A stretch of 50,163 bases of DNA, taken from a bacterium. Its GTDB lineage: Bacteria; Patescibacteriota; Andersenbacteria; UBA10190. Made by a program: the position numbers and the translations under genes. Under the pieces are notes generated by a model. That model searched no databases. It was given only the letters and a program-made list of their open reading frames with translations, and was not told the DNA's origin. Positions 9,320 through 18,480 of this stretch are shown here, piece after piece (position 1 is the stretch's first letter; each line of letters begins with the position of its first letter). The stretch is taken from positions 1-50,163 of the forward strand of contig JAQBWN010000003.1 of the NCBI GenBank assembly GCA_027624555.1, in the 5' to 3' direction.

Positions 9320-9351
9320 GATTGTAGATTCGCATGTGTTCTTAAGTAAGT

Positions 9352-9382
9352 AAGAAATTTAACCCACGCATGGGTATTTCTT
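9352..9382 (-). promoter_or_regulatory. Inverted repeat in the rplC upstream region
   Basis: The sequence AAGAAAT-TTA-ACCCA-CGCA-TGGGT-ATTTCTT folds as a stem with a three-base bulge, 33-63 bases before the rplC ATG. If the promoter at 9383-9411 is used, the ACCCA/TGGGT part lies at the 5' end of the transcript. It could be a leader hairpin for autogenous control or an operator. The function is inferred only from position. Confidence 0.4.
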
Positions 9383-9411: not shown

Positions 9412-9446
9412 ATAAATACTGGGGATTATTCGCATATATTATCGTT

Positions 9447-9477
9447 GTCATCCCGGGCCACGACCCGAGATCCACGT
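9447..9477. repeat. Dispersed CCCGG...CCGAGATCCACG repeat (family C), copy 1
   Basis: The + strand reads GTCATCCCGGGCCACGACCC then GAGATCCACGT. The reverse complement of a second copy near 26170-26200 reads GTTATCCCGGCCCATGAGCC then GGGATCCACGT, so the two are clearly related and in opposite orientation. This copy is in non-coding DNA between the small peptide unit and rplC. Confidence 0.65.
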
Positions 9478-9514: not shown

Positions 9515-9547
9515 TAAAAAAAACCGGGATCTTGGTAGAAACCCGGC
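9515..9547 (-). terminator. Rho-independent terminator after the 35-aa ORF
   Basis: Read on the minus strand, CCGGG-TTTCTACCAAGAT-CCCGG is followed by eight T. It lies 29 bases after the stop codon of the small ORF 9576-9683 and upstream of the rplC promoter, so it closes the small transcription unit. Confidence 0.8.
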
Positions 9548-9575
9548 GTCCGACTACTGCGCTCTTTAGATTGAA

Positions 9576-9683
9576 CTAACTATAATGATTCCACCTCCAT
9601 ATATCTACCATGATTAAAACGAGCTGAAAACCCACAAGCCCTAATCCACACAACATAGGGATAATGCAACAAATTTCTAGCAT
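9576..9683 (-). CDS. Putative 35-aa hydrophobic small membrane peptide
   Basis: This ORF is too short for the supplied track. I read 35 codons from the ATG at 9683. Residues 4-28 are almost entirely hydrophobic, with a GLGLVG motif and three Cys (CC at 5-6, C12); the end is aromatic and polar (WRWNHYS). The support is contextual: a TTGACA-17-TACACT promoter (9752-9780), a ~62-nt leader, an AGAGAAGG Shine-Dalgarno-like sequence 11 bases before the ATG, and a strong terminator 29 bases after the stop. The previous gene (rpsJ) is closed by its own terminator. It resembles single-helix small membrane proteins or type I toxin peptides in form only. No homologue is recognised. Confidence 0.5.
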   Translation of the reverse strand: MLEICCIIPMLCGLGLVGFQLVLIMVDIWRWNHYS

Positions 9684-9751
9684 AGCTTTTTATGCCTTCT
9701 CTCTAATGTTTCAAGAACAAAACTGGTAAACCTATACCAGCCACTCTTTTG

Positions 9752-9780
9752 AGTGTACACCCTATGACCATTTCTGTCAA
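9752..9780 (-). promoter_or_regulatory. Promoter of the 35-aa small ORF unit
   Basis: The minus strand has a perfect TTGACA, a 17-base spacer and TACACT. The predicted start is near 9745, giving a ~62-nt leader that contains a CTGGTA/TACCAG hairpin (9723-9740) before the ORF. It lies just downstream of the rpsJ terminator. Confidence 0.7.
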
Positions 9781-9808
9781 GTGCGACTTTTATAAGCGTA
9801 CAAATACC

Positions 9809-9839
9809 AAAAAACCCCGCATATAAAGCGAGGTTTTTT
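9809..9839. terminator. Bidirectional rho-independent terminator after rpsJ
   Basis: The hairpin has AAAAAACCCCGC and GCGAGGTTTTTT arms around a short AT-rich loop, so both strands end in a T run. It closes the tuf-rpsJ transcript on the minus strand and separates it from the small ORF unit. Confidence 0.85.
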
Positions 9840-9898: not shown

Positions 9899-10245
9899 TT
9901 AGATCGTCTTCATCGAAACATCCACACCTGCAGGAAGATTCAAACTCATAAGAGTGTCTATTGTGCGAGGGGTTGATTCAATGATATCGATCAAGCGTTT
10001 GTGTACGCGGATTTCGTACTGGTCTCGTGCATTTTTATGCACAAACGTAGAACGGTTCACCGTGTACTTTTTCTTGCTCGTAGGCAACGGAGTCGGGCCG
10101 GCAACTTTTGCGCCTTCCCGCTCTACCGCTTCCATAATTTGCTTCGCAGACTGATCGATCAATTTATGATCGTACGCCTTCAGCTTGATGCGAATACGAG
10201 GTGGCACTACCTCTGGAGCTGCTTCTGATTGTACAGTATCAGACA

Positions 10246-10246
<1 letters not shown>
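9899..10246 (-). CDS. rpsJ: 30S ribosomal protein S10
   Basis: uS10, 115 aa against about 103. After a ~15-residue acidic N-terminal extension, the family core begins [20 protein letters not shown]. It continues with [17 protein letters not shown] and has the [19 protein letters not shown] block near the end. The start overlaps the tuf stop by one base (TAATG), so tuf and rpsJ are co-transcribed. Unlike the usual S10 operon, a terminator and 580 bp separate it from rplC. Confidence 0.97.
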
Positions 10247-18452: not shown

Positions 18453-18480
18453 ATTATACTCCTATTTTTAACTTTGTCAG
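18453..18480 (-). promoter_or_regulatory. Promoter of the 59-aa gene
   Basis: Minus strand CTGACA (18475-18480), 16-base spacer, perfect TATAAT (18453-18458). Start predicted near 18446. Confidence 0.75.

Follow-up and report, generated by a model that had tools for sequence, protein, structure and literature searches.

A putative small transcription unit between the rpsJ and rplC units of an Andersenbacteria genome

Organization of the rpsJ-rplC gap

The window, a stretch of 50,163 nucleotides (GenBank assembly GCA_027624555.1, contig JAQBWN010000003.1, positions 1 to 50,163), belongs to a genome of 788,059 bases in 38 contigs. On its minus strand, two units containing ribosomal protein genes follow each other. 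The upstream unit comprises tuf (11442-10246) and, as its last gene, rpsJ (S10; 9899 to 10246), an ORF that was aligned to relatives by tblastn. The downstream unit starts with rplC (L3; 9319-8702), whose product is 74-82% identical in other genus members; identities of 82% and 79% were obtained with two Candidatus Andersenbacteria genomes, which correspond in identity and position to the genus members G002 and G003. Both borders of the gap are marked by regulatory signals. A terminator with a 13-bp stem (9840-9808; -19.2 kcal/mol, z -6.45) follows rpsJ, as hairpin terminators, identified by eye, do in most family members, G005 being without an obvious one. Upstream of rplC, a promoter (TTGCGT-17-TATCTT, 9411-9383) is conserved in three other genus members and alignable across all four.

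Between these borders, a small unit extends on the minus strand from 9780 to 9516. Its putative promoter, TTGACA-17-TACACT (9780-9752; -35 at 9780-9775, -10 at 9757-9752), agrees with the consensus at 10/12 positions. The 17-nt spacer contains the sequence ATAGG (9765-9761), and the -10 region (GTACACT) is similar to the one in the rrn promoter of this genome (TTGACA...GTATACTGC). From the presumed transcription start, a leader of approximately 62 nt (9745-9684) contains one hairpin (9742-9721) and, tentatively, a boxA-like motif (TGTTCTTGAAACA, 9719-9707) with 11/14 matches (shuffle P 0.0135). The preliminary description had called this leader structured, which holds for the hairpin but not for the leader as a whole, whose fold is ordinary (z -0.66 versus shuffles). 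A Shine-Dalgarno-like sequence (AGAGAGAAGG, 9704-9695) shows four contiguous matches to the anti-SD complement. The AGAAGG within it (9700-9695) is weak and, at 11 nt before the ATG at 9683, rather far from the start codon. The following ORF of 35 codons (9683-9576) has the translation MLEICCIIPMLCGLGLVGFQLVLIMVDIWRWNHYS, by its hydropathy a predicted single-helix hydrophobic peptide. The unit is closed by its own terminator (9547-9516), a hairpin followed by T8 (-12.1 kcal/mol, z -1.4) that is much weaker than the rpsJ terminator outside the unit.

A complete unit with correctly ordered parts on one strand had been proposed before. The sequence supports it well: all of these parts are indeed present on the minus strand. 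The interval assigned to it at that time, 9515-9839, encloses the unit, but its right end takes in the terminator of rpsJ and thus a part of the upstream unit. Closer to rplC, at 9446-9475, there is a repeat-like element (GTCATCCCGGGCC...CCCGAGATCCACG); similar ones occur elsewhere in the genome and in the corresponding gap of G003.

Coding potential and possible products of the unit

The arrangement was compared with 3000 dinucleotide shuffles of the 579-nt gap in a test designed after the feature had been seen. In this post hoc test, a promoter, a Shine-Dalgarno sequence, an ORF of 30 aa or more starting with ATG, and a terminator occurred in this order in 0/3000 shuffled gaps, i.e. their co-occurrence is above chance. 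Taken alone, a promoter with at least 10/12 matches was present in 11% and a strong terminator in 4% of the shuffled gaps.

The properties of the ORF point in two directions. The best 19-aa hydropathy value of the peptide, 2.33, was not reached by any ORF of 35 aa or more in 2000 shuffled transcripts. Within the 340 kb examined, 111 ATG ORFs of 28-49 aa are located between genes, and only one of them exceeds this ORF in hydrophobicity. By contrast, its codon score is mid-range for intergenic small ORFs (49% scored equal or higher) and lies below that of 95% of real 35-codon gene segments. Compared to hydrophobic real segments only, the score is still below 96%. The 35-aa single-helix peptide suggested by the preliminary description is supported by its hydrophobicity, while the codon composition is no better than in other ORFs located between genes. 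Such a peptide is plausible, and the chance that it is translated is rated somewhat better than even.

Searches for homologues of the DNA and the peptide (59 and 287 genomes, phages, plasmids), including a search of relatives for the same peptide, yielded chance-level matches only. The unit is absent from every relative searched, and the peptide is encoded in a single copy, as no paralogue was detected in the genome. The lack of a homologue and the non-coding-like codon composition would be expected if the locus were what is left of a degenerated accessory gene, or if its signals had come together by chance, in either case without a useful product. The gaps of G005 and G008, which hold no ORF of at least 55 aa, would fit this explanation as well. 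We nevertheless consider it improbable, since promoter, ORF and terminator were found in order in none of the 3000 shuffles.

More weight has to be given to a small non-coding RNA of approximately 230 nt in which the ORF is incidental. This explanation ranks second, although we regard it as rather unlikely. It would account for the codon composition and the weak Shine-Dalgarno sequence, and 10% of shuffled transcripts contain an ORF of 35 aa or more starting with ATG. On the other hand, the whole transcript of about 230 nt folds like its shuffles (z -0.25), and the hydrophobicity of the ORF remained unmatched in the 2000 shuffles. No Rfam family matched within the gap at the gathering score; sub-threshold matches were weak and mostly located over the rpsJ terminator hairpin.

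A likeness to type I toxin genes had also been put forward. Toxins of this type are hydrophobic peptides of small size, each with an antisense RNA as its partner (PMC6563280). In such a system, a short membrane-acting peptide would be kept down by the RNA. The small size, the single hydrophobic helix and the possession of an own promoter and terminator agree with this type of system. The likeness ends there, because neither a family match (Pfam, PHROGs, NCBIfam, PADLOC) nor a second copy or a relative was found, and a search of the opposite strand did not reveal any sigma-70-like promoter, even though a trans-encoded RNA or a promoter of another type is conceivable. A type I toxin gene is thus an explanation to which we assign a low probability.

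On balance, we lean towards an orphan, self-contained accessory unit located between the tuf-rpsJ and rplC units, which probably encodes a small membrane peptide. Its sigma-70-type promoter would transcribe about 230 nt, and the Shine-Dalgarno-like site would most likely start translation of the 35-aa peptide, which would insert into the membrane as a single helix. The terminator of the unit would halt transcription ahead of rplC, leaving rplC to its own promoter. By analogy, the product may be a small membrane peptide specific to the lineage, with either the membrane itself or a membrane protein partner as its target. In length, in its one hydrophobic helix and in having its own short unit, the ORF is similar to bacterial small single-pass membrane proteins (<50 aa). 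It differs from them in that no homologue was found and its codon composition is not coding-like.

The S10-L3 junction in related genomes

The unit had been described as sitting inside an otherwise conserved S10 region. The comparison with relatives, in which gap lengths were measured from the ends of tblastn matches, gave a different picture: in this family, S10 and L3 are separated by a wide and variable gap between two units. The gap comprises 579 nt in this genome, 1406, 902 and 1141 nt in the other genus members and 248, 806, 260, 1160 and 1288 nt in five further family members. Elsewhere in the phylum the gaps are mostly shorter, but some measure 500-850 nt, so that wide gaps also occur outside the family.

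Where the gap is long, its cargo usually differs from genome to genome. In G001, it encodes an NYN-domain protein (E 5e-17). An HTH protein (E 5e-10) is encoded antisense in G003. G006 has a Zn-ribbon-like membrane protein, likewise in antisense orientation, and G007 a membrane protein, with matches that stay below the Pfam cut-offs in both cases, while G004 harbors only ORFs without assignment. In G008 and G005, where the gap is short, no ORF of at least 55 aa is present. In G002, ORFs of 129, 43 and 118 aa are present. The 43-aa ORF is small and hydrophobic like the window peptide but unlike it in sequence. When compared to 39 relatives, the 129-aa cargo of G002 matched only itself, and the cargo of G003 had no counterpart in a congener and one weak match outside the family.

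In the genus and the family, one transcription unit thus ends and another begins at the S10-L3 junction. Due to the differing cargo, we interpret this junction as a slot that is used repeatedly by accessory genes and not as the site of a conserved function. As in other hypervariable accessory-gene slots, conserved borders enclose different genes in each genome; unlike in slots in general, the borders are here the terminator and the promoter of ribosomal protein units. While the peptide by itself is one more orphan small ORF, it is more useful to know that in a family of Patescibacteria this junction is a break point whose cargo varies by genome.

The rplC leader (window 9320-9376; L033, L034, L006) shows partial conservation within the genus. 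A hairpin plus T-run in it is common to three congeners (AGCTTTTA..TAAGCTTTTTT in two of them, a variant in the third) but absent from the window. This element is possibly a ribosomal-protein leader.

A promoter class and boxA-like leaders in the genus

Promoters with the pattern TTGACA-N9..11-[AT]TAGGnnTA, which was written after example sites had been seen, occur at nine sites in this genome (e.g. L122, L123, L162, L180, L187) and at five to nine sites per congener. The same pattern was found zero to two times in other members of the family and order and not at all in 17 further members of the phylum, and the reversed pattern, used as a control, gave no hit in the genus. Most of the sites precede small ORFs via leaders of some 45-110 nt, whereas at L186 the ORF starts almost at once. 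In a Pfam scan of ten proteins headed by such promoters, nine had no match; the remaining one (L179) matched the RNA polymerase alpha C-terminal domain. The window promoter was considered as a member but does not belong to the class in the strict sense, since its ATAGG is shifted by one base, lying three bases before TACACT instead of the two bases required between TAGG and the -10 region.

BoxA-like motifs with at least 11/14 matches were present in 8/33 leaders of the class compared to 0.58 expected from mononucleotide shuffles. The leader of L180, for instance, carries TGCTCTTTAACAAC. BoxA leaders are bound by NusB/NusE (PMC5725501), and the window leader with its 11/14 matches is similar to them, even though its site is one base shorter than this consensus, which may differ from the native boxA of the genus. 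For a native boxA to compare with, the rrn leaders were inspected, where G000 scored only 9/14 and the look-alikes of G001 (GAACTTTGACAATT) and G002 (GAACTTTTCCAATC) were picked by eye; the boxA reading of the leader motif is therefore tentative. With ATAGG in its spacer and a boxA-like leader, the window unit thus appears to resemble the promoter class, a resemblance in sequence only.

It might be speculated that the genus as a whole possesses single-gene accessory cassettes consisting of a shared promoter (TTGACA-N10-ATAGGAGTATAAT), often a boxA-like leader, a ribosome binding site and one orphan gene. Such cassettes would lodge between housekeeping units, e.g. at S10-L3 or after the 16S gene. 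We put this forward as a doubtful but possible extension. A limited literature search revealed no paper on Patescibacteria promoters associated with small proteins. Slot and shared promoter class together could help to find small orphan genes missed by annotation in reduced genomes.

Some further sites were recorded. On contig C2, a class promoter (L122/L164, C2:25381) with a leader and a 103-aa orphan ORF is located approximately 380 nt past the 16S gene (end C2:25004), beyond a terminator-like hairpin downstream of this gene. In the window, the ATAGGAGTATAAT motif occurs once more on the minus strand at 18453-18465, where it precedes a further small, unassigned ORF and is itself preceded by CTGACA at a distance of 17 nt. 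The sites L128 and L184 of two congeners encode related small proteins (LKAAFRRGDWTSAEIKRACEGDF... in L128) and have similar hairpin leaders.
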